The notes under the pieces were generated by a model. That model made no database searches and was not told the DNA's origin. It worked only from the letters and a program-made list of their open reading frames with translations. Below are positions 5,474-27,024 of a stretch of 64,000 nucleotides of DNA, in pieces. The stretch comes from Gammaproteobacteria bacterium (GTDB taxonomy: Bacteria; Pseudomonadota; Gammaproteobacteria; Pseudomonadales; Azotimanducaceae): NCBI GenBank assembly GCA_009840545.1, contig VXNM01000010.1, positions 902,627-966,626 on the forward strand, in the 5' to 3' direction. Position 1 is the first letter of the stretch. The number at the start of each line of letters is the position of its first letter. Both the position numbers and the translations under genes were made by a program.

Positions 5474-5660
5474 GACATGCTGTATGAAACTCTGTTCAGA
5501 CTACTGTACTTATGTATAATATTTAGCTGCGCTTCGTTGCAATAATAGCGAGCGTCGCCAGATCAAACCCCACCTCCCGAAATTGAAAGAAGCTATGTGT
5601 TAGTGTGTGGTTATACTAGGCGGAGACTTAGCCTTCGGCGCATAAGAAGCGTATACAATC

Positions 5661-6152
5661 TTGTTGTTCATTCAGGAACTTGCAGAGAAAACGTTGTTTC
5701 CTAGACGTTACAGGTTTGACCTCTTGGCGCACCTTGCGGAATGCGACGCGAACTACATGCGCCTGTGCAGACTTATGCAGGATCTTAATTCTGGAGAGTT
5801 TCGAGAAGTGTCAGTACTCGTTAGCTCTGTAAGCGAATCAATTCGGTTCGTTATTTCAGAAAGTTCCCGCTACACCACGACGATCACAATTGCCCAACGA
5901 ATGCCAGCAGGAATACGAGACTTGATGCTTGTCGTAAGGGCATATCACGACGTGCAGTGCGCAGAGGTAATAAGCTTTCAGGGACAGCGGCAGTTCGCTG
6001 AGAAATTGGTGTATCCCAAGGACAAAATGCGTGCTCCAGACGAGAAGGCGCAAGTCAATCGCCTCTTGGGAGAACTCTTGACTCTTTGTCTCAAGAAGGG
6101 TCGCACCTCGCGATCCAAGCAAGACAAGAAAGAATTGCCGTTCATCAACTGA
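5661..6152 (+). CDS. yqiB: DUF1249 family protein (YqiB)
   Basis: A 163-residue protein matching the gammaproteobacterial YqiB/DUF1249 family by the segment YMRLCRLMQDL, the mid region RMPAGIRDLMLVVRAYHDVQCAEVI (short parts only are diagnostic) and the C-terminal KAQVNRLLGELL. Function is not established. In enterobacteria yqiB precedes cpdA, yqiA and parE, and the same order minus yqiA is kept here, which supports the call. The start is a TTG (5661 or 5664) since no ATG fits. Confidence 0.88.
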   Translation: MLFIQELAEKTLFPRRYRFDLLAHLAECDANYMRLCRLMQDLNSGEFREVSVLVSSVSESIRFVISESSRYTTTITIAQRMPAGIRDLMLVVRAYHDVQCAEVISFQGQRQFAEKLVYPKDKMRAPDEKAQVNRLLGELLTLCLKKGRTSRSKQDKKELPFIN

Positions 6153-11289: not shown

Positions 11290-12318
11290 TTACTGCGGCT
11301 TGCGTGCGAGGAAGCAGTACAGAGGAGTAAACAGACCACTTTCCCCACCAGCCACATATGCTTCTGCTGTCTCATCTAGAAATCGGACAACTTCAGCTGA
11401 ACCCCTCGGAAACTGCTTGAATACTTCAGCAAGTTTTAATCCTGCAAAGATTGCCTTTCGACCTAACGGAACTCTACGCAAGAAGCTACCCAGCGTTCCT
11501 TGACGATTCTGCATGGGCTGATACCACGGTGTGGATGGCTCTTCCTGTTGGTCACGATCCATACCCTCGATAACTTCGAATCCAGCAGACTCGAGAGCTT
11601 GATTGACTTCCCCAAAGCTAACGATGTCCTTGAGAGCAATGCCCTTCATGAGGGCACGCTTGATCGCGATGTGTTGGGTGTCCTTGGGATCGAAGATATC
11701 GGTCATGCACATCTCCTGTCCCCAGAAGAGAGCCCCTGGTTTGAGGACACGAAATATCTCTTTGTAGGCTTGAAGTCTATCGGGTGCGTGGCATGTTGAC
11801 TCGATAGCATAGCCTCGGTCGAAAGTACTGTCGTTGATGTGGCTCATGTCCATGAAACTGCACTGCTGGAAGTCCACTTTGTCGTCGAGCCCTGCCTCTG
11901 CAATTAGCCTCTTGGCTCTCTCCAGTTGAAGTTCGTTTATGTTGATGCCAACCATCCGAACTCCGCTTTCCCGTACAACACGACGCATGGGACCACCGAT
12001 CCCGCACCCAATGTCTGCGACAAACATGTCCTCTTGCAGTTCCAATTTGGAAATCATCAAACGCTGGTGCCGGATCTTGGATTCTTCCAAGCTTTCGTGT
12101 GGCGTTAGTGGGGCGAAGTGCAATGATTCTCCCCACCCTAACACCATGAGTCCAGTGCTTACGTCGTAATAGCGATCTACTGTTTGGGCATGGTCATGCG
12201 TATCCGTGTCGCTGGACTGGGATGTCGACTTGCTACTCGAATCCTCAAAGTCTCTCATGCGACGGTGGACTTCTCCCTCCCGAAACGCCTCCTTTAGTTC
12301 TGTTAAGAATTTACCCAC
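11290..12318 (-). CDS. Sterol 24-C-methyltransferase-like enzyme
   Basis: A 342-residue SAM-dependent methyltransferase that matches eukaryotic sterol C-24 methyltransferases (SMT/Erg6) over its whole length. Visible: the aromatic region LGWGESLHFAP (60-70), SAM motif I DIGCGIGGP (102-110), the SMT signature YAIESTCHAP (170-179), FRVLKPGALFWGQEMCMTD, and the C-terminal SMT domain with PWYQPM and FTPLYCFLARKP. The first 45 residues are low-complexity Ser/Asp. Family knowledge: these enzymes alkylate C-24 of a sterol side chain. Substrate here is inference, because no sterol cyclase lies in the window. It is on the same strand as the flavin monooxygenase, 431 nt upstream of it, so it probably has its own promoter. 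Other small-molecule methyltransferases share the N-terminal fold, but not the C-terminal SMT domain. Confidence 0.88.
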   Translation of the reverse strand: MGKFLTELKEAFREGEVHRRMRDFEDSSSKSTSQSSDTDTHDHAQTVDRYYDVSTGLMVLGWGESLHFAPLTPHESLEESKIRHQRLMISKLELQEDMFVADIGCGIGGPMRRVVRESGVRMVGININELQLERAKRLIAEAGLDDKVDFQQCSFMDMSHINDSTFDRGYAIESTCHAPDRLQAYKEIFRVLKPGALFWGQEMCMTDIFDPKDTQHIAIKRALMKGIALKDIVSFGEVNQALESAGFEVIEGMDRDQQEEPSTPWYQPMQNRQGTLGSFLRRVPLGRKAIFAGLKLAEVFKQFPRGSAEVVRFLDETAEAYVAGGESGLFTPLYCFLARKPQ

Positions 12319-12749
12319 TCTTCTACCTCTATCCAGCCTCTTTTCTTTGATCGCAGGGAGTTCAGGTTAGTCGATGGCCTCCACGTTTTGTCGTGTAGCA
12401 CTATCGACCAGAATTAAATGAAATTACCAAGTTGCTAGTGCTTTTGCCAGCGTAATTCGATCCCGTAGTATCAATGTACTAGCAGTCTGGACGTTCAATA
12501 GCACACTATGGTACTTAGCAGAATCAAAAGTTTGGGGATCGTTGACAGATTCACACTTCGTCGTCGCTCTTCAATCGGATTCCTTGTTACTGCACTCTCA
12601 ATGTCTGTCACTGACGTGCCCCTCTCTCGTCTGGCGGGAACCTCCGATGTTTAGCAGATTCTCTCTTCATGTTTGAGGAAATTGGATTGTGACGGCTCAG
12701 GCTGTCTTGCTAAACCACAACGCGATTGGTTAGCCAGCCTAAAAGAGTC
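12319..12749. other. Intergenic region in the accessory island
   Basis: 431 nt between two minus-strand genes with no credible reading frame. Near 12711-12738 there is an imperfect inverted repeat (GCTAAACCA ... TGGTTAGC) just past the end of the monooxygenase gene, which could act as its terminator although no T-run follows. The rest probably holds the methyltransferase promoter. Confidence 0.5.
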
Positions 12750-14702
12750 TTACTTGGACGGTTGTTCGGACGCTGCGATGGAGGATTCACTCCATCGATA
12801 TGCTCTAGGGTCGAAGTCTCTACATTGTTTCCAGAATTCGACAAGCGTTCCGGGCCAGCATTGCGTCACGCGACCGTTTGCGTTCTTGTACCAGGCATTG
12901 ACGCTTGAAGCCCCCCACGCCATTTCAAGATTTTCTCGATCGATTCGTTCGTTGTACGAATCGTGAAATTCAGGATCGCAATCCATCGAAGCGTAGTTGT
13001 TATCGAGAAGGTGCCGAATGCTCTGCATGATGTAGAGCATTTCGCATTCAGAAAAGAAAATGATGCTGCTATTGACCACAATGTTGGTGTTCGGCCCGTA
13101 CAGTGTGTACATGTTCGGATAGTTAGGCATTGTTATGCCGAGATAGGCTCGGGGATCATCGCCCCAACGTTCGCGCAGCTCTTTGCCGTCTACACCATAG
13201 ATTTTCATCGGATAGAGAATTTGGTTTGCTTGAAATCCCGTTCCGTAGAGAATGACATCGTAGTCGGCCGTTGATCCGTCCGCACGTTGAATTCCCGATT
13301 CTGTAATTGACTCAATCTTTGTTTCGATGACTCTAACATTGGATTTCTTAAGCGCACGATACCAATCGCCATCGTCGATAAGCATGCGTTTGGCGGCCGG
13401 CGGGTAACTAGGAGTGAGTTTGTCGATCAAGTCGGGTCGCTCTTTTAGTTGCGTCTCAATTCCGTGAGTCAGCATTTGACGCAACCTGTCGTTAGCTTCA
13501 CTGATCGAGTTTTGGCTTCGATCCCAGGTAGGGTCGCATCGAGCCATCGACAGCAGTCCTTCGCCCGATGTCCAAAACATGGAAAACCGAAACCAAGTTG
13601 CATAGAAAGGGATGTTGTTAAGCAACCAGTGCTGTTGATCACTGATGTATGCCTGATATAGGGGGTTGATGGCCACCCAGGGCGGAGTTCTTAGGTAGAC
13701 ATCGACAGACTTGGATTGCTTGACAACATGTGGCGTAAATTGGAATGCCGAAGCGCCCGTTCCAATAATGGCCACTCGTTTGCCTGTCAGATCTACAGAT
13801 CGGTCCCACCGAGCTGAGTGAAAGCTGGGTCCAAGAAATTGCTCTTGTCCCGCTATGTCCGGCATTTTCGGACGATTCAACTGTCCTACAGCAACGATGA
13901 CAGCATTTGCCGTCACTTGATCCGCCCCTGTTTCTGAATCGAGATTCAATGTCCATCGAGCCGTATCATTGCAATAGTGCATTTCCGTGACTTCGGTCTT
14001 GAATCGTATTTGTGCTCTTAGGTCGTGCTCTTCAGTCACGTTCCGAAAATAATCCAGAAGAACTGACTGATCCGAAAAGTGTTGGGGCCAATCTTTAGGG
14101 GCGAAGGAGTAGGAGTAGACGTGGTTCGGACTGTCGACTCGACAACCCGGATAGCGGTTTTCAAACCATGTTCCACCGACATCCGCATTCTTCTCTAGCA
14201 CGACGAATGGAACACCCGCTTGTTTTAGGCGAATTGCGGCGAGGATCCCCGACATACCAGCTCCAACAATGGCAACCTTGAACCGATCACGAGTAATTTG
14301 AGGAATCGATGAAAAACCTTCAACCTCGTACGCTCCCCTTCCGTTGATTGCAAGTTCGGCGAGTGCGAATTCTGAGTAATCGTCTGACAGCTCTTGCCCA
14401 GCAACGAAGTTTGTCATTTCGGGAATGAGTTTCGAATCGAAGGGTGGACCAGTGACCTCTCCATCTCGATACTTAGCGATCACATCGAAAGCAGCGTCGA
14501 CTATCTTCGACTTGGCCTCTTCGGAAATTGATTGATTGGGATTGCCCATAGGCACGACATGCGGTCGAATTTCCCCGCGTAGCAGGTCGATGTCCCCAGT
14601 CAAGTGAACCAGAACGCACATGAGCGCTGGCACGTGGGCGTGTTCGAGACAAGCGCGAATTTGCTCATTGCTTGCAGATCGAAGAATTTGGTTTGGTTTC
14701 AT
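12750..14702 (-). CDS. Baeyer-Villiger-type flavin monooxygenase
   Basis: A 650-residue NADPH/FAD-dependent monooxygenase. Two Rossmann fingerprints are present, GAGMSG (147-152, FAD) and GTGASA (314-319, NADPH), with the type I Baeyer-Villiger signature FxGxxxHxxxW between them (FLGPSFHSARWD, 289-300). The ~140-residue N-terminal extension resembles that of 4-hydroxyacetophenone monooxygenase (HAPMO), also about 640 residues. Such enzymes insert oxygen next to a ketone to make esters or lactones; some act on steroids. It is divergent from the MFP/RND pair, with 248 nt between them, and co-directional with the sterol methyltransferase-like gene. Substrate unknown; a ketosteroid or other cyclic ketone would fit the context. 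Confidence 0.9.
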   Translation of the reverse strand: MKPNQILRSASNEQIRACLEHAHVPALMCVLVHLTGDIDLLRGEIRPHVVPMGNPNQSISEEAKSKIVDAAFDVIAKYRDGEVTGPPFDSKLIPEMTNFVAGQELSDDYSEFALAELAINGRGAYEVEGFSSIPQITRDRFKVAIVGAGMSGILAAIRLKQAGVPFVVLEKNADVGGTWFENRYPGCRVDSPNHVYSYSFAPKDWPQHFSDQSVLLDYFRNVTEEHDLRAQIRFKTEVTEMHYCNDTARWTLNLDSETGADQVTANAVIVAVGQLNRPKMPDIAGQEQFLGPSFHSARWDRSVDLTGKRVAIIGTGASAFQFTPHVVKQSKSVDVYLRTPPWVAINPLYQAYISDQQHWLLNNIPFYATWFRFSMFWTSGEGLLSMARCDPTWDRSQNSISEANDRLRQMLTHGIETQLKERPDLIDKLTPSYPPAAKRMLIDDGDWYRALKKSNVRVIETKIESITESGIQRADGSTADYDVILYGTGFQANQILYPMKIYGVDGKELRERWGDDPRAYLGITMPNYPNMYTLYGPNTNIVVNSSIIFFSECEMLYIMQSIRHLLDNNYASMDCDPEFHDSYNERIDRENLEMAWGASSVNAWYKNANGRVTQCWPGTLVEFWKQCRDFDPRAYRWSESSIAASEQPSK

Positions 14703-14950
14703 CGACTCTTCGCGGTGGCTCTAACCCTTGTCACGTGCTCCAAAGTTTACTTAAAGAACAATGAAGTTCGTTCCTGACATAGATTCGAATGGCTACAAGT
14801 TCGAACGGAAAAGCGCGTTCTATAATCCAAAGCAGGATTTTCTAGGAAGCTGCGAGAGAATTCACCCAGCAGTTACGCCTCTAAAGGGAGCACTGGGCCA
14901 AACGTCCATGCTGGGAATATTCTCGAACCTAACAACAGAGGAGTCCCGAG

Positions 14951-16036
14951 ATGAGTAAGACTCGAATACTGACGGTAATCGTCGTTGTGGCTGCAGTAGT
15001 TGTATGGCTCTTGTCCGGGATACTCACAGATTCTCCATCGGAAGCGGTAGTCTCGCTTGCCGAGGCAAAGGAGATCCGAGACGCTGAAGAGTCAGCCGAA
15101 ACAGGAGTTCTAGTTCGAGCCAAGCGAAGCACCGCTGTCCAGCAGGACGACACGATCTTGCTTCGCGGACGCATTGTGGATCGAAATCAGGCGACGGTTC
15201 CCGCGCGAACCGGAGGTCAGGTCATAGCTAGATATGTCGAAATTGGCGATTCCGTAGCGACCGGCGACGTACTTTGCGAACTGGACCCTGAGGACCGCCA
15301 AGCTCTGGTTGACGTCGCAAAGGATGCACTTGACTTGGCAGAGAAAGAATTCAAGAGCGTAACCACGCTAACCGAGCGGGGCTTCGAACAGGAGTTGGAC
15401 ACTGCCCGCAAGAAAGCGCAGTTGAGTGCGTCCAAACAAGCATTGCTCGCTGCAGAAATCGAACTTGAAAACACCAAGATTACTGCCCCGATCGACGGAA
15501 TCGTGGACATGGTTCATGCCAATTTGGGTGACTACGTGAGTTTGGGTTCGCCTTGCGCAACGATTTTGGTGCTCGACCCTGTCTATGCTCAAGGGTTCGT
15601 TGCCGAGGAGCACATTGTCAGCCTAACCCTCGGAAGTAGCGCTACTGTCACGTTGCCGAATGGTGAATCTCGTGATGGTGAACTTTCCTTCATAAGCAAG
15701 AAGGCGGAAGAGAACTCAAGAACATTTCGGGTGGAAATAGAGTTGTCGAATGAGGATTTCTCTATTAGTTCGGGAATGAGTGCAAACATCGAGATCGTGG
15801 TTGACTCCACGCTGGCCCATCAAGTCCCCACCTCGGTTGCATTGCTTGATCAGGACGGAAGCCTTGGTGTAAAGCTGGTGGCGTCCAACGATGTAGTCGA
15901 ATTTCGTAGAGTGAGCATAGTCCGAGAAGACCCCGATGGGATTTGGGTTTCGGGATTGCCAGAACGGGCAACCATTATCACGGTAGGTCAGGGTCTGGTA
16001 GTCGAAGGCGAACGTGTAACCGTCGACTTCGAGTGA
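14951..16036 (+). CDS. RND efflux periplasmic adaptor (MFP/HlyD family)
   Basis: A 361-residue membrane-fusion protein. One N-terminal membrane segment (about residues 6-24) anchors it; then a biotinyl-lipoyl half (GGQVIARYVEIGDSV), a coiled-coil hairpin rich in Ala/Glu/Lys (about 115-175), the second lipoyl half (ITAPIDGIVDMVHANLGDYV) and beta-barrel domains. Adaptors of this type link an inner-membrane RND pump to an outer-membrane channel. ATG has a GAGGAG site 8 nt before it. The RND gene follows after 49 nt. No outer-membrane factor gene is nearby, so a TolC-like protein encoded elsewhere would be used. Confidence 0.93.
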   Translation: MSKTRILTVIVVVAAVVVWLLSGILTDSPSEAVVSLAEAKEIRDAEESAETGVLVRAKRSTAVQQDDTILLRGRIVDRNQATVPARTGGQVIARYVEIGDSVATGDVLCELDPEDRQALVDVAKDALDLAEKEFKSVTTLTERGFEQELDTARKKAQLSASKQALLAAEIELENTKITAPIDGIVDMVHANLGDYVSLGSPCATILVLDPVYAQGFVAEEHIVSLTLGSSATVTLPNGESRDGELSFISKKAEENSRTFRVEIELSNEDFSISSGMSANIEIVVDSTLAHQVPTSVALLDQDGSLGVKLVASNDVVEFRRVSIVREDPDGIWVSGLPERATIITVGQGLVVEGERVTVDFE

Positions 16037-16085
16037 TTTTCATCCCCTCAAGAAGAGCCAGTTTCATGCGAGCTACTCGAACGAC

Positions 16086-19000
16086 ATGAGAAAAATTGTC
16101 GAGTTTGCGATTAGCCATACGCGAACTACGCTCTTGGTCATGTTCACGATCTTGATTTTTGGGATCGTCGCCCGAATGGCAATACCCGTCGAGAACGAAC
16201 CTAAAGTCGACATACCGACGTTCTTGGTCACGATTCCTCATGAGGGAATTTCGCCTGAAGATGCTCTACGTCTTCTTGTTGCACCTCTAGAAGTCGAACT
16301 CAAAGCCGTCGACGGCATCAAGGAAGTCAGCGGTACCGGCGCGGAACACATGGCGGTCCTTGGCGTTGAGTTCAAGTCGCATGTTGATGTTGACGTTGCA
16401 AGAGCTGATTTGCGCGAAGCAGTCAATCGGGCTCAGCAAGAGTTTCCGACAACAACTGATGAACCCATTATCACGGTAACTGGGGGACACAACAGTAGAG
16501 TGCTACAAGTCAATCTTGTTGGTAGAGGAGCCCCAGAGCAGCTGCTTTATCGCACAGCTCTGGATCTTAAGAGCCGCATTGAATCTCTGGTAAGCGTACA
16601 GCGCATCAGCATGCAAGGAGCTAGAGAGGAGTTTCTCGAGATTGCCATCGACCCAACTCAAATGCATGCGTACAAACTCTCGGTGGAACACCTCATCGGG
16701 GCGATCAACCGAAATAATCGACTCATTCCAGCGGGATCGTTGCTTTCAGGAAGGGGAAGTCTATCCATAAATATTCCTAGCGTCGTTGAGGAGCCCAACG
16801 ACTTGCTGGATGTTCCCATCTTTGCGGATTCAGAGAAAGTAGTAACTCTCGGTGACATCGCTTCGATACGCCGAACTTTCAAGGATCGGGTGAGCTATTC
16901 CCACGCAAACGGCGAGCAATCGATTTCACTCTTTGTCTATCGTCGTCCCGAAGCATTCTTGATCAACACTTCAAAGGAAGTCGAAGCGCTTGTGGCGGAA
17001 TACCAATCCGAAGTACCCCACAGTATGAGGGTGTTTGTCTCCTCGAACCTTGCTTCCTTCGCCGAACGATTGGTTACCGAGCTTCAAGGGAACATGATCA
17101 CTGCCTTGGTGCTTGTGATGATTGTGGTACTGGCAACCATGGGATTTCGTACAAGTCTAGTCGTGGGGACCGCGATACCAGTAGCCTTTCTGTTTGCCTT
17201 GATATTTCTATGGCTTGTCGGTCAATCGTTCAACTTCATGGTCATGTTTGGAATGCTCCTCGGGTTGGGCATGCTTATCGACGGTGTGATTGTCGTCACT
17301 GAAGATGCGGATCGTCGGCTTGCCGACGGAGTATCCAGCGCGGATGCGTACACATCAGCTGCAACTCGAATGGCTCGTCCCGTAATTACTTCGACATCTA
17401 CCACATTGGCTGTGTTCTTCCCACTTCTGTTTTGGCCGGGCACAGCGGGTGCATTTATGTCATACCTTCCCAAGACGGTGTTCTTGGTAATGGTTGGCGC
17501 ACTTTTCTACGCTCTCTTGTTCGCTCCCGCATTGGGCAACCTCCTGATGGGCAACAAGCCTGGAAGAGTAGACTCCAAACAGTCAGTGCAACTCATGTGG
17601 AATGTCGATGTTTCCGCATTGAAAGGATTCAAGAATCTCTATGCAAGAGTCTTGTCCTTTGCTGTTAAGCATGCCGTTCTCACGGTCGTTGTAGCGTTGG
17701 TTGCGATCTATGGGATATTTTGGCTCTACGGTTCCAAAAACGCCGGCGTAATTTTCTTCAACGAAAATGAGCCTCAGTGGGCAAATCTCTATGTGCGGGC
17801 ACAGGGAAACTTGAGTGCGGACGAAGCCTACAACCTCGTATCAAGTGTAGAAAGTGAAATGATTCAGGTTGTTGGATTGAAAGATATCAACATGATGTCA
17901 ACTGCTGGAGTGGGTCAGACAGAGGGAACTCGGACCGAGTTTTCAGGTGGTGCTAGTGCCGATGTCATTGGTATTTTCTTCACTGAGCTAGTTCCTAGTG
18001 ACGAACGAGAGCGATCCGGTGAAGACATTCTTGAGGAAATCCGTGAGCGGACATCCAAAATCAGCGGAATAATCGTCGAGGTTGTGCCCTTCCATGGAAC
18101 TCTCACGCCCGGCAAGCAGATCGCGCTCCAATTCACTGCAGAAGATCGAACCGTTCTGGAACCCGTTGTAACGTCGGTGCGAGATTACATGAAGAATCAA
18201 CTCGTGGGTCTTCGAGATCTTGAGGACACTCTTCCACTGGGTGCTCTTGAGTGGCAGCTCTCAGTTGATCGTGCAAAAGCCGCCTTTTATGGTGCCGATG
18301 TAACTACGGTAGGACTTGCTACCCAACTGTTGACAACTGGCGTGAAGCTCGGCGAGTACCGACCTGATGATGCCGAGGATTCGCTGGATATCAGAGTGCG
18401 TTTTCCCAGCTCTTCCCGTGGTTTAGACGCACTTGACGATCTCGAGGTTGTGACTCAAAAAGGTGCGGTTCCGATTTCACATTTTGTGGAACGAAAGCCT
18501 CGGATTAAGTCGGATGCATTGCAGCGACGTGACCAGTCGAACATGCACATGATTCGAGCGGCTGTAGCTCCTGGAGTCCTGGCCGACACCATGGTCAACG
18601 AGATTCAAGCATGGATTGACGAGCAAGGATTCGACCCGCGCGTGAACATTCGGTTTCGAGGTACAGACGAAGAACAGCAAGAGTCTCAAGCCTATCTGTC
18701 GAAAGCGTTTTCCTTCGCGCTTCTACTGATGTTTGTGCTGCTTGTACTTCACTACAACAATTTCTATCACCCGTTACTCACGATGCTTGCGATTGTTCTT
18801 TCCACCGCCGGTGTCTTCTTGGGGTTGATGCTAACGGGTCAACCATTCAGTGTCATTCTGAGTGGTATTGGAGTTCTCACGCTTGCGGGAATTGTGGTGA
18901 ACAACAATATTGTCTTGATTGATACGTTCAACGCTGGCAGTCGAGAGAATCCAGACCGTGATATTCGGGAGATTGTTGTACTAACTGGATTGCAGCGGCT

Positions 19001-19319
19001 TCGTCCCGTGCTTATCACGACGGGAACTACGATTATTGGAATTTTGCCTCTCGCAACCGACAACTCTATTGACTTCATCAATAGGCAATGGATATTTGGC
19101 GGACCCGTGTCTGCCTATTGGGTTCCTTTGTCGCAAGCGATCCTCTTCGGACTCAGCTTTGCCACCATACTCACATTGATCGTGACCCCTGCATTGTTGG
19201 TCTTGCCCGCTCAACTCAAGAATTGGTACAAAACTGTACGAGGAAGCCTTCCGGCTATTGGCCGGCTTGTTCCAACCCGACTCAACAAGGCTTCACGAGT
19301 AGTGGACAGCAGTTCGTAG
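16086..19319 (+). CDS. RND-family inner-membrane efflux transporter
   Basis: A 1077-residue RND permease with 12 membrane segments and two large periplasmic loops, the usual size. It opens with one membrane helix and the RND-typical GTGAEHMAVLGVEF region. In segment 4 the proton-relay motif is LIDGVIVV: the first aspartate is kept (D399) but the second position, Asp in AcrB, is Gly400. In segment 10 the residue equivalent to AcrB Lys940 is Asn in GIVVNNNIVLID. So it is not a canonical AcrB relay; single-Asp variants exist in other RND branches. It pairs with the preceding adaptor. Its place among a sterol methyltransferase-like enzyme and several oxygenases suggests export of their product; this is inference. 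Confidence 0.93.
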   Translation: MRKIVEFAISHTRTTLLVMFTILIFGIVARMAIPVENEPKVDIPTFLVTIPHEGISPEDALRLLVAPLEVELKAVDGIKEVSGTGAEHMAVLGVEFKSHVDVDVARADLREAVNRAQQEFPTTTDEPIITVTGGHNSRVLQVNLVGRGAPEQLLYRTALDLKSRIESLVSVQRISMQGAREEFLEIAIDPTQMHAYKLSVEHLIGAINRNNRLIPAGSLLSGRGSLSINIPSVVEEPNDLLDVPIFADSEKVVTLGDIASIRRTFKDRVSYSHANGEQSISLFVYRRPEAFLINTSKEVEALVAEYQSEVPHSMRVFVSSNLASFAERLVTELQGNMITALVLVMIVVLATMGFRTSLVVGTAIPVAFLFALIFLWLVGQSFNFMVMFGMLLGLGMLIDGVIVVTEDADRRLADGVSSADAYTSAATRMARPVITSTSTTLAVFFPLLFWPGTAGAFMSYLPKTVFLVMVGALFYALLFAPALGNLLMGNKPGRVDSKQSVQLMWNVDVSALKGFKNLYARVLSFAVKHAVLTVVVALVAIYGIFWLYGSKNAGVIFFNENEPQWANLYVRAQGNLSADEAYNLVSSVESEMIQVVGLKDINMMSTAGVGQTEGTRTEFSGGASADVIGIFFTELVPSDERERSGEDILEEIRERTSKISGIIVEVVPFHGTLTPGKQIALQFTAEDRTVLEPVVTSVRDYMKNQLVGLRDLEDTLPLGALEWQLSVDRAKAAFYGADVTTVGLATQLLTTGVKLGEYRPDDAEDSLDIRVRFPSSSRGLDALDDLEVVTQKGAVPISHFVERKPRIKSDALQRRDQSNMHMIRAAVAPGVLADTMVNEIQAWIDEQGFDPRVNIRFRGTDEEQQESQAYLSKAFSFALLLMFVLLVLHYNNFYHPLLTMLAIVLSTAGVFLGLMLTGQPFSVILSGIGVLTLAGIVVNNNIVLIDTFNAGSRENPDRDIREIVVLTGLQRLRPVLITTGTTIIGILPLATDNSIDFINRQWIFGGPVSAYWVPLSQAILFGLSFATILTLIVTPALLVLPAQLKNWYKTVRGSLPAIGRLVPTRLNKASRVVDSSS

Positions 19320-19365
19320 CATAGTCTCGGGAATCCGTAGCGGGTGTGCCCTGTTTACCCGAAGG

Positions 19366-20394
19366 CTATGTGACTGATTCGGGGGAGTCAGCATAAAACT
19401 GCTGACAATAACGACGAAAACGAACAATCGGTCTTTCGTCTGGACCGACTCTTGGATAAATGAGATACTTCTTGTTCTCCCAGATTTCAAAGTCTTGAGA
19501 GATGTCCTTGCGGTAGACGTTGAAGAATATTCTTAGCAACCATGCATTAAGAGCTCGCTTGGGAACCATGCTCAGTCCCGGAACCAATGCGTTGGGACTC
19601 TCAATGTCTTTCATCTGCATTGCCATAACAAAGTTCACTCGCGAACCGTCTATGGGGGTGCAGAGAGCTAGCTGCCGGATATAAAGTCCTGCTTCTTCCA
19701 TAGTAGGTTCGATGGTTGAAACACCCAATCCCCACATCGACACAACTGCAGATACTCTTAGAGTCACACAAAGCTTGTTCGACGGTCCAAGTCTGCGCGT
19801 TAATGTGAACCGGTTTTGCAAGAGTGGTCCTTCAACTTCCAATGGTCCTAGGCTCTCTACTTGAGAATATCCGTGGACATAAGGTAGATGAGTGAGGTCG
19901 ACCCCATTCTCTGCAGTCTCCTGCGGATGAGTGTGAATTACTCTAGAGTCGTAAACTAGATTTGACCAATTTCCTTCATCAAAATCGGGAATATCCCATT
20001 GGGGGCTAGATTCTTCTGGGTGCCACCAAGCATAGATCACACCGCCAGTTTCACGTGTGGAATAGGTGTTCAAAGATAGTTTGTGCGTAGGAGGGCCGGC
20101 TGGTGTTTTCACGCACAATCCACTCGCATCGTAGCAATATCCATGGAACGGACATACAAGTAGTCCATCTCTAAGACTTCCACCTCGATTTGGCGACAGA
20201 TTCGCGCCTAGATGCGGGCAAGTCGAGTCTGCAACACACACCTTGTTGTTGGAATCGCGCCAATATACGAGGCTTTGCCCCAACCACTGTTTGGAATACA
20301 GTTTTCCACTCTTGACATTCTCGCTGAATTCCACCCAGTACCACCCAATTGGGAAGGGTGAAAATGGAAAGCGATCAATTGCGGCGGAATTCAT
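19366..20394 (-). CDS. Rieske non-haem iron oxygenase (KshA/DAF-36-like)
   Basis: A 342-residue terminal oxygenase. The Rieske [2Fe-2S] ligands are C59, H61, C81 and H84 (CPHLGANL ... CPFHGYC). The mononuclear iron site is D166/H169/H174 context ENGVDLTHLPYVHG, giving H169 and H174, with N163 in the bridging region. The C-terminal part contains IWENKKYL and RFRRYCQQFY, typical of the branch that includes 3-ketosteroid 9-alpha-hydroxylase (KshA) and the cholesterol 7-desaturases DAF-36/Neverland. These act on steroids in known cases. A separate reductase is needed and none is encoded nearby. It is convergent with the RND gene (46 nt apart) and divergent from the GPP34-P450 gene. Confidence 0.88.
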   Translation of the reverse strand: MNSAAIDRFPFSPFPIGWYWVEFSENVKSGKLYSKQWLGQSLVYWRDSNNKVCVADSTCPHLGANLSPNRGGSLRDGLLVCPFHGYCYDASGLCVKTPAGPPTHKLSLNTYSTRETGGVIYAWWHPEESSPQWDIPDFDEGNWSNLVYDSRVIHTHPQETAENGVDLTHLPYVHGYSQVESLGPLEVEGPLLQNRFTLTRRLGPSNKLCVTLRVSAVVSMWGLGVSTIEPTMEEAGLYIRQLALCTPIDGSRVNFVMAMQMKDIESPNALVPGLSMVPKRALNAWLLRIFFNVYRKDISQDFEIWENKKYLIYPRVGPDERPIVRFRRYCQQFYADSPESVT

Positions 20395-20766
20395 GGCAAG
20401 TCGGTGGCACTTGAAGTGTTTCCAAGTCGAAACAAGTCAAACATGTAACAACGAAATTTCATCAAATTGGTGTATTGAGTGTCAAATATAACCTGCGTAT
20501 CTTGCTCGTATCTCAAAGATTCGCTCATCATGTGTATACATTACTTGGCATACGCTTGCATTGTGCTAGAGAGTTTGCTCTTCAAGCGTGAGCTCTAGTG
20601 GGCGCCATCCTATCCCAAATTGAGGATGATTCAAGGCACGCGCTCACCAGACAATTTCATTTCGCAGTGACCAATTAATTAAGATAATACCGAATGCGCG
20701 AGTCTTCGATCATGAAGAGTCGGCTCATTTCTATAAGAATTTGGAGACGTTCAGACAGCTGTCCAT
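20395..20766. promoter_or_regulatory. Divergent regulatory region between Rieske and P450 genes
   Basis: 372 nt between two divergent starts with no credible gene. It probably holds both promoters. It contains a tandem direct repeat at 20424-20442 and several short palindromic stretches such as ACATGT and TGTATACA, which could be operator sites. A weak plus-strand promoter (TTGAGT, 17 nt, TATCTT) ends about 270 nt before the P450 start. Confidence 0.45.
20424..20442. repeat. Tandem AAGTC-type direct repeat
   Basis: AAGTCGAAAC is followed directly by AAGTCAAAC, 20-30 nt upstream of the Rieske gene start. The spacing of about one helical turn would suit a regulator that binds side by side on one face of the DNA. 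No regulator gene is present nearby. Confidence 0.4.
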
Positions 20767-22773
20767 ATGTCGACGTTAACGTTCCTTGAAGAAGTGACCA
20801 TGGTCCTGCTCAACGAAGACACTGGTGGCTTCGAACCCTTGTCCGACTGGCGTATGTCGTGCGTGGCCGCCGGTGCTGTGCTTATGGACTTGGCTCTCGC
20901 CAATCGAATCGACACAGATCTCGAATCGCTAATACTCCTCGACGAGACACCACTTGATGACGATCTGCTCGATCCCTCTCTCGCGGAGATTGCTGCAGAG
21001 ACCGATACTAACCGTCCAATTCAGTATTGGGTCGAGCGAATTGGATCTCGAGCTGAAGATCTTGTGCACAAGTCTCTCGAACGATTGGGGTCGCGCGGCA
21101 TTATTCGGTCCGACGAAGGAGGTTTCTGGGCGCGAACTTCCAAGGTTCGTCGAGATAAAGTCGGAGAACTTGAAGGTGAGGACTTTGTGCGCGACGTTCG
21201 ACAACGGATTTTCAGCGTAATACATAGCGATGAAATTCCAGATCCGCGTGAGATTTCGATCATTTCTTTACTGAACGCGTGCGAAGTCTTCGTTACGAGG
21301 CTCGATTCGGTAGAGTACGAGGAGGTTGCGGAGAGAGTTGAGCTCTTGTCCCGTATGGACTTGATTGGCCAATCACTTGCTGTCGCCGTACAAGCAACTT
21401 TTAAGTCCCCGGTAACTTCCACGGTTGTGCCAAGGCGTGACCCGCCACGCATAGGATTCTGGGACTGTCTCCTTTCAAAACCACTAAGGAGTGGAAATCT
21501 TCCTGAATTCTTTGCCGAGCAACATTGCAAGTATGGACCAGTTGCAGTCCTAAAGCCAGTGAAAAAGAAGACTTTCGTCATAAGCGGGGCAGAAGTGAAC
21601 GCGATGGTTCACCGTCGTGGAAGACTGTTCCTAAGAAGCAAGGAGTACATTGAGGAATTCCAAAAGGATTGGGGAGTAAGTCGTTCAGTGGCCAGTATGG
21701 ACGGTGCGGAGCACTTTCGCATGCGTAAAGTCATGAGAGACGGTACCGCACGAACTGTAGTGGAGGATAGAGTTCAGGAACTCTACGAGATATTTGGAAG
21801 GCATGTTTCAAATTGGTCAGTGGGTAAAACCCATATGGGCGAATATGCCTGCCAAGCGATGGTAGGAGAGCAAGTCAGCATACTGTCGACCAGTAGTGAC
21901 ATTTCAGGGTATTTTGACGACCTCTTCATTTTGGAGACTCGAATGCTCTTGGTAAATGTCTTTGGGCTCTTGCCAAAGTTCATGACTCGTACGCCAAGCA
22001 TGAACAGGAAACGCAAGCGTCTCCTCGAACTCTACGCGGCTATTCATAGTGCGCATTCGCCAGCGCTTCGAGAAGGCATGCGTCGCGATTTCGTTGACGA
22101 TATCTTCGAGCTTCACGCAGAGGATCCGCAATTCCTGCCCGAAACAGACATTGGTTTTGCGCTGATAGCAGCGCTAATAGCTGGGCACTATGCGGGAAGC
22201 GTGCTTAGTTTTGCACTCTACAGCATATTGACAGAACCCGAAATCGTTGAGCAGTTGAGGCAGGAAGCGGAGAATCTCTTTGCAGATGGTCACGCCTCGC
22301 ATGAAGAGATCAAGAACGAAGATATCGACGTAGCTTTGCGATTTGTGATGGAAGTCATGCGCCTTTATTGCGTCATACCCGTACACATGCGCCATGTTAT
22401 GAACGCTCAAATCGTTGAAGGTTATGAAATTCCTCCCAACATTGACTGCATGGTTGCATATACGGCGTCACATTACCTTGAGGAAAACTTCAAGGACCCT
22501 CTGAAGTTTGATATCGATCGGTATCTCCCACCACGGGAAGAACACAAGAAACCAGGAGCGTTCAGACCTTTTGGAGTGGGGACACACACATGCCTCGGTC
22601 AAAGATTTGTCGAGTTGCAGATGGCTATGAACGTTCTGCTGTTAGTGCACCATCTAGATCTTGAAATGGTTCCGAAGAGTTACAAGCTTAAGATTACCCC
22701 TTTCCCGAAATTGCACCCAAACAAGCGGTTTAAGTTTCGAGTGACAAACATTCGGAATCCTCTACCAGCCTAG
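20767..22773 (+). CDS. GPP34 (GOLPH3/Vps74-like) - cytochrome P450 fusion
   Basis: A 668-residue protein with two domains. Residues 1 to about 205 match GPP34, the fold of GOLPH3/Vps74: LTFLEEVTMVLLNEDTGG, then W28 at the position of GOLPH3 Trp81, the helix AGAVLMDLALANRI, a winged segment near 95-125, and IPDPREISIISLLNACE. Residues about 215-668 are a cytochrome P450: C-helix HFRMRK, ExxR as E529-R532, and haem-ligand C609 in PFGVGTHTCLG. The I-helix reads AGHYAGS (472-478); it resembles the CYP51 pattern AGHHTSS, but the oxygen-activating threonine is replaced by Ala476. The ATG is supported because the GPP34 homology begins at the N-terminus. In eukaryotes GPP34 binds PI4P on Golgi membranes, so here it may dock the P450 to a membrane lipid (inference). 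A frameshift-free continuous frame makes an artefactual fusion unlikely. Confidence 0.88.
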   Translation: MSTLTFLEEVTMVLLNEDTGGFEPLSDWRMSCVAAGAVLMDLALANRIDTDLESLILLDETPLDDDLLDPSLAEIAAETDTNRPIQYWVERIGSRAEDLVHKSLERLGSRGIIRSDEGGFWARTSKVRRDKVGELEGEDFVRDVRQRIFSVIHSDEIPDPREISIISLLNACEVFVTRLDSVEYEEVAERVELLSRMDLIGQSLAVAVQATFKSPVTSTVVPRRDPPRIGFWDCLLSKPLRSGNLPEFFAEQHCKYGPVAVLKPVKKKTFVISGAEVNAMVHRRGRLFLRSKEYIEEFQKDWGVSRSVASMDGAEHFRMRKVMRDGTARTVVEDRVQELYEIFGRHVSNWSVGKTHMGEYACQAMVGEQVSILSTSSDISGYFDDLFILETRMLLVNVFGLLPKFMTRTPSMNRKRKRLLELYAAIHSAHSPALREGMRRDFVDDIFELHAEDPQFLPETDIGFALIAALIAGHYAGSVLSFALYSILTEPEIVEQLRQEAENLFADGHASHEEIKNEDIDVALRFVMEVMRLYCVIPVHMRHVMNAQIVEGYEIPPNIDCMVAYTASHYLEENFKDPLKFDIDRYLPPREEHKKPGAFRPFGVGTHTCLGQRFVELQMAMNVLLLVHHLDLEMVPKSYKLKITPFPKLHPNKRFKFRVTNIRNPLPA

Positions 22774-22810
22774 ACGGCTTTGCGATTGATATTGTTCAGG
22801 CTGTGACAGG

Positions 22811-23809
22811 CTAGAAAGCAACGATAGTTTTTGCGCCTCGATCGGGAATCTCTCGCACGAGGCGTGGTGCGAGATATCCAGGCACACGGGATTGCAGTCT
22901 TCGATAGATCGAAAGAGCTCTTTGTTCTGGCAAGTCGAAGTGTGATGTTCCTGCAACTTTATCCAATAGGTGAAGGTAGTAGGGTAGAACTCCAATTTCA
23001 AAGAGCTTCCACGAGAGTTGCTCCAGCACTCTAGCTGAGTCATTTACACCCTTCAGTAGCACACTTTGATTCAACAAGGTTACTCCGGAGGTAACGAGGG
23101 CGTTGGTAGCGGATTGGACTTTTTCGTCGATTTCGTTTGGATGGTTAACGTGCATGACCACAACGATCTTAAGTCGTTCGGCTCTTAAGACACCTAGTAA
23201 CCCTGGCGTAATTCTTTGGGGCAAAACTACGCCAAATCGAGTGTGAATCCTGACACTCCGAACGTTGGGAACCATACCGATTTCGGAAATTATTTTCTCC
23301 AATTGGTCGTTAGGCAAAATCAGAGGGTCTCCACCCGAGAGTATGACCTCGAAAATTGAACTGTCGGTGTTCAAGACCTTGAGCAAGGGCTCTATAGATG
23401 CGGTTCGATGTTCGCGATACGGAAAGTGCCTACGAAAGCAGTAACGGCAATGGATCGGACAAGCGGAAGCAACGATGTACAAGACCCGCCCTTGGTACTT
23501 GCGAAGTACCCCAGGTGCTATCATCGAATCTCCCTCCTTGAGGGGATCTGCGGTGTAACCAGCGGCTTCCGTTTGTTCTTGCACGGAAGGTGCTACTTGA
23601 AGCAGAAGCGGGTCTTTGGGGTTTCTCGGCTCTATTCGGGCGAGGAAAGGTCGGGGTACAAAGATCTCGAACGTTGGTTTGTCAAGCCACTCCGTTTCGT
23701 CCTGTTTCAGACCTAGCACACTGCGGAGAGTTTTCGCATCCCTAATGGATTCGTGAAGGATCGATCTCCACTCGTCCTCATCCCACGACAATGTTTTGGA
23801 AAGTATCAT
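22811..23809 (-). CDS. epmB: EF-P beta-lysylation protein EpmB (lysine 2,3-aminomutase)
   Basis: Radical-SAM, PLP-dependent lysine 2,3-aminomutase that converts (S)-alpha-lysine to (R)-beta-lysine for modification of elongation factor P. The [4Fe-4S] cysteines are C117, C121 and C124 (CPIHCRYC), followed by FSGG-like LSGGDPLI. 332 residues, the usual short EpmB form without the C-terminal oligomerisation region of clostridial KamA. It is divergent from efp with only 26 nt between the starts. Confidence 0.96.
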
Positions 23810-23835
23810 TTGCCGTTCAGAAAGGACTTTCGATC

Positions 23836-24411
23836 ATGGCTAGCTATTCTACGAACGAGTTTCGAAACGGACTTAAGGTGATGCTCGAGGGAGAACCGTG
23901 CGTAATTCTTGAGGCTGAATTTGTAAAACCCGGTAAGGGACAGGCGTTTACGCGTGCAAAGTTTCGCAACTTGATCTCGGGGCGCGTTTGGGATCGTACG
24001 CTGCGCAGCGGTGAGACCATGGAGTCAGCAGATGTTGTCGAACTGAACATGGAGTACCTGTACTCGGACGGAACGGATTGGCACTTCATGCGCATGGACG
24101 ACACATTTGAGCAAGTTAGTGCAAGCTTAGCCGTAGTCGGAGGTGCGGAACGATGGTTGAGCGAGCAAGACAAATGTACCGTGACTTTATGGGAAGGAAA
24201 TCCCATTTCCGTTGTACCGCCAAACTTCGTTGAGCTACAAGTTATGGATACCGAACCAAACATTAGAGGCGATACCGTGGCAGGAGGTAGCAAACCCGCT
24301 ACTTTGTCGACAGGGACGACCATCCGGGTGCCATTGTTTATTGGGGTTGGAGAAGTCATTCGGATTGACACTCGGACTGGCGAATACGTAGGGCGTAGCA
24401 AGCAATCTTGA
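23836..24411 (+). CDS. efp: Elongation factor P
   Basis: Translation factor that relieves ribosome stalling at polyproline. The ATG at 23836 gives 191 residues and puts the modified lysine at K34 in KPGKGQAF, exactly the E. coli number; an in-frame start 45 nt upstream is not needed. The three beta-barrel domains are complete. K34 is the residue beta-lysylated by EpmA using the product of EpmB, and both genes flank efp here. Confidence 0.98.
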
Positions 24412-25334
24412 CCTCCCCGTGGCGACCTGCCGCTACAGCGCAGACGCTTTGTGACCGTTCCTCTCTCGTTTGGAGCATCCGAAAGTTCTTCCATGATCGC
24501 GGAGTCATAGAGGTACATACTCCTGTTCTCGGTTCGCGGACGGTCTCAGATTTGCATATTGACTCGATAGCTGTTCAATCCGGTTTTCTTCAGACTTCTC
24601 CCGAATACTTTATGAAGCGACTGTTAGCCGGCGGAGTGCCCTCGTGCTATCAAATCGGTCCTGTTTTCAGAGATGGAGAGGTTGGAGCGTGGCACAACCC
24701 GGAATTTGTAATGTTGGAGTGGTATCGGATTGGTTTTGATTCACAGCGATTAAGAAATGAGGTGATGGAACTCGTTGATCTGGCACTTGGTTCCGATTCG
24801 TACAGTACGGTCACCTATCAGAACCTGATAGGTGAAGAAGTTGGAGTCGACGTGTTTGATGCGAGTCCGAATGAGCTGCTGCGTGTCGCGGAGAGCCACG
24901 GATACTCAGGGATAGACGATGCCAATGAAACTTGCGACTTTCTCTATTCGCACGCAATGGAGTCGTACGACTGCCCACGCTTTTTTGTCGTTGATTTTCC
25001 TGTAGGATCGGCTGCGTTGTCGCAGATCACGATGTCAGAGTCCGGCAACGTCGCCGATCGGTTCGAATTGATTGTTTCACAGGTCGAGCTGGCCAATGGC
25101 TATAACGAACTGCAGGACCCGATCGAACTTGATCGTCGAATATCCCGAGACAATCGAAGACGCAAGAACAAATCAAAGAGTTCCATTTCTCCTGACGAAA
25201 GACTCTTGGCGGCAATGCATCACGGATTGCCTCAGTGCTCAGGTGTTGCAGTTGGCTTGGATCGTTTGATCTCGCTTGCTTTGGGGTTTGACGACCTTAA
25301 TCAGGTTATGACTTTTCCAGCCGGTCGTGCATAG
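24408..25334 (+). CDS. epmA: EF-P-(R)-beta-lysine ligase EpmA
   Basis: A 308-residue paralogue of the catalytic core of class II lysyl-tRNA synthetase (GenX/PoxA) that attaches beta-lysine to EF-P Lys34. Class II motif 2 (GPVFRDGE ... [11 protein letters not shown]) and motif 3 ([10 protein letters not shown]) are visible; the anticodon-binding domain is absent, as expected. The TTG start overlaps the efp stop as TTGA, so the two are coupled. EpmC, which hydroxylates the modified lysine in E. coli, is not in the window. Confidence 0.95.
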
Positions 25335-25379
25335 AGACCTCTGCCGCTTCTGTAAGAGTGTCCATTATGATTTCGTGGA

Positions 25380-25409
25380 TTGACAGAATTTGCGATGTCT
25401 CAACAAAGT
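25380..25409 (+). promoter_or_regulatory. Candidate promoter of orn
   Basis: A perfect TTGACA -35 at 25380-25385 is followed after 18 nt by a weak -10 (CAAAGT), 15 nt before the orn start. The short distance would give a nearly leaderless transcript, so this is tentative. Confidence 0.25.
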
Positions 25410-25423
25410 AGTTGGAGTGCTAC

Positions 25424-25969
25424 ATGCATTCAAATTTGATTTGGCTTGACATGGAAATGACAGGACTTGACCCAGAACAGGACTCCATCCTTGAAATCGC
25501 TACGATCGTGACCGACTCACACCTAGATGAAATCGACGAAGGTCTTTCCATTGCGGTGCACCAACCGGAGGCCGTTCTTGCGCAAATGGACGACTGGAAC
25601 TTGAACCAACACACTGCCTCAGGTTTGCTTGACAGAGTGAGGAGTTCGAAAAGCAGCTTGGAGGAAGCGGAAGCTGTGACCTTCGACTTAGTCTCGCGGC
25701 ACACCCAGCAAGGGAAATCTCCCTTATGTGGAAACTCAATTTGGCAGGATCGCAGATTCCTCAAGCGCTACATGCCGACGCTAGAGGGGTATTTTCATTA
25801 CAGAAACATCGATGTGAGTTCTATAAAGGAGCTTGTTCGGAGATGGGCTCCCGAGATTTACAAGGAACTGAGCAAGTCCGAAGAACATCGCGCCTTGAAC
25901 GATGTTAAGGAGTCGATTGCTGAGTTGAAGCTGTATCGGAGCAAGTTTGTTGCGCCAGATTACCGTTGA
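25424..25969 (+). CDS. orn: Oligoribonuclease
   Basis: DEDDh 3'-5' exonuclease that degrades RNAs of two to five nucleotides, including pGpG from c-di-GMP turnover. The acidic pair is in WLDMEMTGLDP near the N-terminus, with the later HRALNDVKESIAEL motif supplying the His and last Asp. The ATG at 25424 has a GGAG site 6 nt before it and gives 181 residues, the normal size. Its 3' end overlaps the convergent queG by 65 nt. Confidence 0.96.
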   Translation: MHSNLIWLDMEMTGLDPEQDSILEIATIVTDSHLDEIDEGLSIAVHQPEAVLAQMDDWNLNQHTASGLLDRVRSSKSSLEEAEAVTFDLVSRHTQQGKSPLCGNSIWQDRRFLKRYMPTLEGYFHYRNIDVSSIKELVRRWAPEIYKELSKSEEHRALNDVKESIAELKLYRSKFVAPDYR

Positions 25970-27008
25970 GTCGCCGAATTGCCCAATCAATGTGTTCAAC
26001 GCACATCGCGTCCGATCTGTTTACCATCTCCTTTCGTTTCCGAACAAGAGCTTGTTCTAGTGCTTCGTCTGTAGGAGCATTTCCTGCAGCCACAGAAAGG
26101 TTTCTCGTCCACTGACTGTAATTGATCCGTCGTAGCGCCATGCCTCTCGTATTCTCGAGAAACTGCTCTTCGCTCCACTCTAGCAATTCAGCAATGGGCT
26201 TTCGGTCCAGATCGTGGCGCACTGCAAAGTCCTTTTCTCGAGTCGCTGGAGCAAAGCGATTCCAAGGGCAGATCAACTGGCAATCATCGCAACCAAACAC
26301 ACGATTACCGATATGTGGTCGCAGATCTTCGGGTATCGAGCCCTTCAATTCAATGGTGAGGTACGAAATGCATTTTCTCGCATCTAATTTGCCAGGTCCC
26401 ACGATTGCGTTGGTTGGACAAACATTAATGCACGCTTTGCAGGATCCACACTGCGGCTCAATTTTTCGGTCGGTGGTCGGTAGCGGCAAGTCGGTGAAGA
26501 TTTCGCCCAGAAAAAAGTAAGAACCAACTTCGGGGTGCATAGCCAACGTATGCTTGCCAATCCATCCTAACCCCGCTTTCTCGGCAATTGGCTTTTCAAG
26601 CACAGGAGCGGAGTCGACGAACGCCCGATGCGAACCACCGGCAGCGTCCGACATTTTCATTGCGATCTTGGCAAGTTTGCGCCGAAGAACCTTGTGATAG
26701 TCACGACCTGTGGCATATCGTGATATATAGGCCAAAGCTGGTTCTTGAAGATTGTGCGGTGGAGAAGGGGGAGCGTAGTTCATTCGTGCGCTGATGATTC
26801 GAACGGTGCCGGGAACAAGCTCCGCAGGAGCTAGCCGCTTCTCTACATTTCGCTCCATGTAGTGCATTTCACCGTGAAATCGCTGACACAACCATTGGCG
26901 GTACTCACGGGACGAGGCTGAGAGGTCGACGTCTGTGATTCCAATCTCATCGAAGCCCAAATCCAACGCCCAGGTTCGAATGTCCTTGGCTAACGCATGA
27001 AGATCCAT
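25905..27008 (-). CDS. queG: Epoxyqueuosine reductase QueG
   Basis: Cobalamin- and iron-sulfur-dependent enzyme that makes the last step of queuosine in tRNA. Two ferredoxin-like cluster motifs are visible, CGSCKACINVCP and CDDCQLICPW. 367 residues is normal. It is convergent with orn and divergent from nnr, whose start is 16 nt from the queG start; orn-queG-nnr-tsaE is a usual gammaproteobacterial cluster. Confidence 0.95.
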   Translation of the reverse strand: MDLHALAKDIRTWALDLGFDEIGITDVDLSASSREYRQWLCQRFHGEMHYMERNVEKRLAPAELVPGTVRIISARMNYAPPSPPHNLQEPALAYISRYATGRDYHKVLRRKLAKIAMKMSDAAGGSHRAFVDSAPVLEKPIAEKAGLGWIGKHTLAMHPEVGSYFFLGEIFTDLPLPTTDRKIEPQCGSCKACINVCPTNAIVGPGKLDARKCISYLTIELKGSIPEDLRPHIGNRVFGCDDCQLICPWNRFAPATREKDFAVRHDLDRKPIAELLEWSEEQFLENTRGMALRRINYSQWTRNLSVAAGNAPTDEALEQALVRKRKEMVNRSDAMCVEHIDWAIRRLNGNLAQQTCSDTASTQQSTP

Positions 27009-27024
27009 TTATAGAATTGGAAGT

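Follow-up and report, generated by a model that had tools for sequence, protein, structure and literature searches.

A candidate sterol-tailoring and transport module with a GPP34-cytochrome P450 fusion, shared among probably sponge-associated bacteria

Between parC and epmB, a 64,000-nucleotide stretch of a gammaproteobacterial genome (here the window; GenBank assembly GCA_009840545.1, contig VXNM01000010.1) carries six accessory genes: a sterol C-24 methyltransferase (SMT) homologue, a Baeyer-Villiger monooxygenase (BVMO), the adaptor and the permease of an RND pump, a KshA-like Rieske oxygenase and a GPP34 domain fused to a cytochrome P450 (GPP34-P450). Do these genes act together and, if so, on what? 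The first-pass annotation had read them as tailoring and transporting a sterol-like lipid. Our analysis suggests, with a probability of roughly 0.7, that the SMT, adaptor, RND pump, Rieske oxygenase and GPP34-P450 form a transferable module for sterol tailoring and transport in sponge-associated bacteria. The reading of the first-pass annotation is strengthened by sterol-pathway genes elsewhere in the genome, by linkage of SMT and GPP34-P450 to such genes in three relatives and by the recurrent co-location of SMT, Rieske and GPP34-P450 genes; the function itself is predicted from sequence.

The analysed genome (G000) comprises 3.39 Mb in 14 contigs and is 96% complete. The island occupies positions 11290-22773 of the window, between parC, which ends at 11147, and epmB (22811-23809, minus strand). 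The open reading frames (ORFs) and Pfam confirmed the six genes and the families first assigned to them, and the named domains of the island proteins all score above the Pfam cut-offs:

11290..12318, minus strand: SMT homologue (iSMT), 342 aa, with Sterol_MT_C and methyltransferase domains (Pfam)
12750..14702, minus strand: type I BVMO, 650 aa, FMO-like (Pfam), with BVMOs as PDB relatives
14951..16036, plus strand: periplasmic adaptor (membrane fusion protein) of an RND pump, HlyD_D23/HlyD_3 (Pfam) and TIGR01730 RND_mfp
16086..19319, plus strand: RND transporter permease, 1077 aa, ACR_tran at 499 bits (Pfam)
19366..20394, minus strand: KshA-like Rieske oxygenase, 342 aa, Rieske and KshA_C domains, the latter at 88 bits (Pfam)
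20767..22773, plus strand: GPP34-cytochrome P450 fusion, 668 aa, GPP34 at 88 bits and p450 at 145 bits (Pfam)

A second genome of the genus, G003, has all six genes in this order between the same two flanking genes, and a third, G014, has five of them, with SMT missing. Because the gene set recurs in the same order, the island is more than a chance arrangement. A scan of the island for promoters and terminators returned fewer sites than the mean of shuffled sequences.

To place the island among its relatives, G000 was compared with 17 genomes of its genus (n=18), for which stretches around GPP34-P450 were fetched. GPP34-P450 was present in all 18, window-type SMT in 14 of the fetched stretches (G001 has a partial match only) and the Rieske gene in ten. 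Most island genes thus co-occur in relatives, as the first-pass annotation had expected of a functional set; the complete six-gene set was found only in G000 and G003, and the exact set does not stand as a unit. In G005, G008 and G011, GPP34-P450 and SMT directly adjoin an SdmB-SdmA-ERG24-CYP51-SE/OSC sterol cluster, with SMT 1.3-1.6 kb from the cluster and GPP34-P450 adjoining SMT.

In G000 the squalene epoxidase, cyclase and sterol demethylation genes that the first-pass annotation had proposed to look for were found on another contig, C2. Family searches of the genome revealed a sterol-pathway gene cluster in a 20-kb stretch of C2 (L036), in the order IPP isomerase (NUDIX), HMG-CoA reductase-GHMP kinase fusion, SdmB, SdmA, ERG4/ERG24 reductase, a P450 in the CYP51 position, a fusion of squalene epoxidase and oxidosqualene cyclase (SE-OSC), a second Rieske oxygenase, a 247-aa membrane protein, squalene synthase and a second SMT. 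SE-OSC is a single ORF of 1124 aa (L036:10342-13716; G000:C2:400341-403715). Its squalene epoxidase (85 bits) and cyclase N and C (168 and 203 bits) matches all exceed the Pfam cut-offs, the TIGR03463 match of 700 bits falls under the cut-off of 851, and the DCTAE motif is visible in the translation. SdmA (410 bits) and SdmB (295 bits) both score under the equivalog cut-offs of 600, ERG4_ERG24 scores 227 bits, squalene synthase was also recognised, and the C2 P450 is assigned to CYP51 by its position and a general P450 match. EBP/EXPERA (sterol isomerase superfamily) matched all five scanned members of the 247-aa membrane protein family, at best with 9.8e-6; the match of the G000 copy, 0.075, does not reach the cut-off. 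By these family assignments, G000 has the genes to make sterols. Ten of the 17 other genus members also have the SE-OSC fusion; it is divided between two contigs in G008 and G016, and its frame is interrupted in G005.

The C2 sterol core is of an already known type, because its gene order largely fits published sponge-symbiont clusters and because fused SMO/OSC homologues are in print. Kelly et al. 2022 described clusters of steroid genes (CSGs) in Ircinia symbionts (PMC9531527). As on C2, these contain a DFR-like short-chain dehydrogenase/reductase (here SdmB), a hypothetical protein (here the SdmA Rieske protein), ERG24, CYP51 and LSS, with squalene synthase and SMT following on the other strand (PMC9531527). 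ERG24 to the end of SE-OSC spans 5,836 bp here, and the printed core length of 5,910 +/- 74 bp (range 5,293-6,059) agrees with a fused SE-OSC (PMC9531527). C2 differs from the printed CSGs in having the second Rieske gene and the membrane protein between LSS and squalene synthase. GPP34, Rieske and RND are all absent from the main text of PMC9531527 (supplements outside scope). In the account of Brown et al. 2023 (PMC10070321), sponge-symbiont SMT homologues cluster with sdmA/sdmB and cyclase genes, as the C2 SMT does. Of 24 metagenomic SMTs tested there, 20 alkylate the side chain in vitro (8/10 symbiont, 12/14 environmental), and three make 24-isopropyl sterols. Its Methods mention 'fused SMO/OSC homologs', and we therefore rejected the SE-OSC fusion as a new finding. 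The words 'Rieske' and 'fusion' are absent from the main text of PMC10070321, where GPP34 and RND were not searched for.

Two further features of C2 were observed. At the head of the sterol cluster, preceded by IPP isomerase, one protein (L036:3226-5574) joins HMG-CoA reductase to a GHMP (mevalonate-type) kinase, giving a gammaproteobacterium a supply of the mevalonate type. A second ERG4/ERG24-type reductase (G000:C2:334740-335792) is 35% identical to the sterol-cluster copy, and similar extra copies occur in G003, G009, G014-G017 and G023.

Some relatives keep the module without the pathway. Among the 15 genus genomes that are >90% complete, 11 have SE-OSC; G002, G007, G010 and G013 lack it, and no ERG24 homologue was found in these four either. 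All four retain SMT and GPP34-P450. On one contig, G013 aligns to G011 as far as position 13108 and resumes at 22702, with 91% and 94% identity on the two flanks; the 9.6 kb in between, which hold the sterol cluster in G011, are missing. The same absence was seen in G002 relative to G011, from 13108 to 27539, with flank identities of 73% and 92%. SMT and GPP34-P450 are intact in both G013 and G002. Assembly gaps are an unlikely cause of the missing sterol genes in these two genomes, since both flanks lie on one contig; the G007 contig ends near the boundary and is uninformative, and G010 was not compared. The dN/dS values were 0.033-0.062 for GPP34-P450 and 0.049-0.121 for SMT (15 pairs each from six genomes, including pairs in which both members lack SE-OSC), and are rough because many dS values are near or above 1. 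Because two relatives without the cluster keep both genes intact and dN/dS is low, relatives of this type probably modify sterols made elsewhere. G013 also carries a broken SMT copy with six in-frame stops (G013:C3:44862-45857), in keeping with decay of the pathway.

The module recurs beyond the genus. A genome collection (84,980 species by its description) was scanned with one pattern, taken from the heme loop of the P450 part in the GPP34-P450 alignment, and yielded 283 relatives. The best 80 of the 283, all spanning both domains, were analysed, and genes within 10 kb of GPP34-P450 were counted as co-located. The Rieske gene was present at 51 of these 80 loci and SMT at 43, with both at 31 and either at 63; among the 49 full-length loci, SMT or Rieske was present at 42. 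Without the eight loci from the window's genus (n=72), the counts were 37 for SMT (38 if a sterol-cluster-type copy in L195 is counted) and 45 for Rieske. At 7 of the 80 loci, ERG24-like reductases stand in tandem close to the module. The loci are labelled Pseudomonadota (30), Chloroflexota (24), Acidobacteriota (12), Rhodothermota (4), Gemmatimonadota (3), Latescibacterota (2), Actinomycetota (1) and Verrucomicrobiota (1), with three without phylum. Their isolate prefixes are SB06 (22), jk18x (15), COS (11), RHO (10), uuid (10), p16x (4) and others (8). One jk18x name denotes an Ircinia metagenome-assembled genome (MAG) of Kelly et al. (PMC9531527), and COS and RHO would stand for Coscinoderma and Rhopaloeides, judging from the host list of Robbins et al. 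A sponge source is stated for the jk18x loci and, by title, for TsSOB; elsewhere among the 80 it is inferred or not stated. A GPP34-P450 tree (65 rows, quick method) required 12 phylum changes, against a minimum of 7 and a shuffled mean of 31.6, which suggests that the fusion was mostly inherited within large groups, with some transfers. The combination of SMT, GPP34-P450, KshA-like Rieske oxygenase and RND/adaptor was not found described in the open PMC literature (subscription papers and supplements outside).

Recurrence of gene families was counted over 100 loci, the best 80 plus 20 stretches of relatives that partly repeat them. Sixteen families occur in at least seven of the 100, of which 12 were identified (eight by a scanned representative, the others via window genes) and four were not scanned. 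A 462-aa flavoprotein of the amine-oxidase/NAD_binding_8 type was observed in 23 of the 100 loci (e.g. L192:6522-7907).

The window SMT matches Sterol_MT_C with 53.3 bits (Pfam cut-off 21.7) and also matches broad methyltransferase families. It is distinct from the second SMT beside the sterol cluster of its genome, to which it is 37% identical. In place of YAIEATCHAP, which we take to be the corresponding region of yeast SMT, it has YAIESTCHAP; this form occurs in 23 of 33 iSMT rows in all, with variants in the remaining rows, and a region of this type was found in none of nine other methyltransferases by the pattern used. In the tree, the 33 window-type SMTs form one clade (support 97/94) and six sterol-cluster-type SMTs a separate one (98/94). 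A starred set of 16 rows (99/97) contains the window SMT, its G003 orthologue and 14 rows labelled Chloroflexota or Acidobacteriota, suggesting that the window copy was probably acquired from outside Gammaproteobacteria.

In the Rieske protein, the CxH/CxxH motif and the iron site D166-H169-H174-D301 are invariant in an alignment of 35. The six best PDB matches of its model (mean pLDDT 90.9) are all KshA, a 3-ketosteroid 9alpha-hydroxylase (E 5e-22 to 2e-20, query TM 0.75-0.79, 19-23% identity), with saxitoxin-type Rieske enzymes ranking closely behind. The window protein shares with KshA its Rieske and KshA_C domains and its modelled fold; in contrast, it is only 19-23% identical to KshA in structural alignments, and no catabolic cluster was seen around its gene. 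It may also resemble DAF-36/Neverland.

The P450 part of GPP34-P450 has an ExxR motif and a heme cysteine that are invariant in an alignment of 39, and its GPP34 domain scores 88 bits against a Pfam cut-off of 29.1. A GPP34 profile matched Vps74 and GOLPH3 at 4e-14 to 1e-13; a single-sequence PDB search with the domain gave no match. The model of the whole protein has a mean pLDDT of 83.7 and a pTM of 0.70. The window protein shares the GPP34 domain with GOLPH3/Vps74, but here the domain is fused to a P450, in a bacterium without a Golgi. No role for bacterial GPP34-P450 fusions was found in print in the open PMC literature. Among 369 genomes sampled across the class, a full-length fusion was present in only two (G000 and G286), and two more match the P450 part alone. 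G000 also encodes a second GPP34-P450 (L038:8375-10378; G000:C2:453374-455377), 35-36% identical to that of the window and with orthologues in G003 and G014; no sterol gene was recognised among its surrounding ORFs. The gene for a stand-alone GPP34 protein (L039:8050-8733; G000:C2:288049-288732) is oriented divergently to genes of the fatty-acid-hydroxylase and GH3 families, another GPP34 neighbouring a likely lipid-oxidising enzyme.

The adaptor matches TIGR01730 RND_mfp with 156 bits (cut-off 94.9), and it adjoins the RND gene in genus relatives. An RND orthologue (at least 53% identity) was found in the fetched stretches of 14 of the 18 genus members, G000 included (the G013 copy is cut by the stretch end); in G005 and G011 it lies past the sterol cluster, ~14 and 16.5 kb from GPP34-P450. 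Window-type RND (at least 50% identity) with adaptor occurs at 11 of the best 80 loci, and less related RND proteins at 30 more. A family of ~825 aa is present in 18 of the 100 recurrence loci. The one member scanned (L188:13290-15764, from a Chloroflexi locus) is an MMPL transporter with Pfam Sterol-sensing (52 bits) and Patched matches, by its families a member of an RND class other than that of the window. The first-pass annotation had drawn an analogy to BstA of Methylococcus capsulatus, which is said to be an RND protein. BstA is a cytoplasmic membrane protein encoded beside sterol genes, and sterol binding has been demonstrated for Bst proteins (PMC10942540). The analogy is loose: Bst pairs BstA with BstB, a phosphonate-binding-type periplasmic protein, and includes BstC, an outer-membrane-associated helical protein (PMC10942540), whereas in the window the adaptor is HlyD-type and the permease AcrB-type. 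Neither a BstB-type phosphonate-binding protein nor BstC is among the six island proteins; no search for them was made elsewhere in the genome.

Several observations weigh against a sterol module of this composition. Neither SMT nor Rieske lies within 10 kb of GPP34-P450 at 17 of the 80 loci (10 cut short, seven full-length), and within the fetched stretches 4 of the 18 genus members lack SMT and 8 lack Rieske beside GPP34-P450. Loci outside the genus all come from MAGs, in which single contigs may be misbinned, and the phylum count rests on labels. RND genes are common, and at 30 of the 41 loci where one was matched it is only distantly related to that of the window. At what we take to be the PI4P-pocket positions of GOLPH3, no conservation was seen in the GPP34 profile alignment. 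By sequence the best PDB relatives of GPP34-P450 are CYP51s, and in Foldseek its model matches BM3-type P450s first; since CYP51s follow just behind with similar scores, the modelled P450 fold names no substrate. Support for joining the iSMT clade to the sterol-cluster SMTs is only 82/75, in a tree with several very long outgroup branches. Finally, 26 of 50 outside genomes of the 80 loci have no clear cyclase (G067 and G071 are borderline at 5e-4 and 3e-4), absences limited by MAG completeness, which is not stated.

This last result bears on the possibility that the true substrate is a related polycyclic or isoprenoid lipid other than a sterol (a hopanoid, carotenoid or other triterpenoid) from the sponge or other symbionts. 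The remaining outside genomes divide into 12 with the SE-OSC fusion (one cut by a contig end) and 12 with only a distant, non-fused cyclase, and 22 of the 26 without a clear cyclase carry SMT or Rieske by the fusion. The absences fit imported sterols and also a non-sterol substrate, and the broad methyltransferase matches of the window SMT would also suit the latter. We nevertheless consider a non-sterol substrate unlikely, as Sterol_MT_C scores above its cut-off, the SMT family is one clade next to the sterol-cluster type (if not firmly joined), the Rieske model is nearest KshA, and the genes adjoin a sterol cluster in three species. The first-pass annotation had allowed that the SMT and Rieske proteins might fall in non-steroid clades. 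Domain match and model place them otherwise, with the weak SMT join as the reservation.

A chance run of accessory genes, with a multidrug pump and xenobiotic-modifying oxygenases, would account for the bystander BVMO, the commonness of RND pumps and P450s and the restriction of the exact set to two of 18 genus members. It is quite improbable given SMT and/or Rieske near GPP34-P450 at 63 of 80 loci in eight labelled phyla, where ~two SMTs per 3 Mb would put one within 10 kb of a given gene in an estimated ~1-2% of genomes. Steroid breakdown, in which the Rieske protein would begin to open the rings of host sterols in the manner of KshA-dependent catabolism, is suggested by its KshA_C domain and best fold match but is very improbable, as SMT has no role there and no ring-cleavage gene is among the 12 identified of the 16 recurrent families (the genome itself was not searched for hsa/kst).

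Returning to a sterol-tailoring and transport module, we infer its substrate, the reaction of each enzyme, the membrane role of GPP34, the direction of transport and the sponge habitat as follows. SMT would alkylate the sterol side chain at C-24, and the P450, anchored to the membrane through its GPP34 domain, would act with the Rieske oxygenase to oxygenate or desaturate the rings or the side chain. The product would then pass through the cell envelope by way of the RND pump and its adaptor. In G000 the substrate could come from the cell's own sterol pathway on C2; in relatives without that pathway, the sponge or other symbionts would have to supply it. More tentatively, and at somewhat less than even odds, sponge-associated bacteria of at least eight phyla may share, partly by horizontal transfer, a module of GPP34-anchored P450, C-24 SMT, KshA-like Rieske oxygenase and an RND-class sterol pump that remodels rather than makes sterols. 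Species that never had or have lost the pathway would keep it under selection, using sponge or symbiont sterols, and the whole community would jointly produce the unusual sterols of sponges (24-alkylated, ring-oxygenated, possibly 9,11-seco). The earliest trace of animals may be a 24-isopropyl sterane ascribed to demosponges, for which bacteria are a possible alternative source (PMC10070321). If our proposal is true, a module that crosses phyla and persists without the biosynthesis core would offer a genetic handle on that question and a candidate enzyme set for expression. It would also suggest a role for bacterial GPP34-P450 fusions and mean that sterols are passed and modified between host and bacteria.

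BVMO, which the first-pass annotation had counted in the set, looks like a bystander and was kept out of the proposed model. It adjoins GPP34-P450 at only 2 of the best 80 loci, both from the window's genus. Seven further genera of the family have orthologues (48-54%), and in six of the seven neither the SE-OSC cyclase part nor ERG24 was matched. We rejected it as a module member because of this rare co-location and these family-wide orthologues without sterol genes. Ten of the 18 genus members have BVMO, seven of them away from GPP34-P450; an orthologue is present in three of the 18 fetched stretches and a distant one (31%) also in that of G012. Its closest solved relatives are OTEMO and the phenylacetone and steroid monooxygenases.

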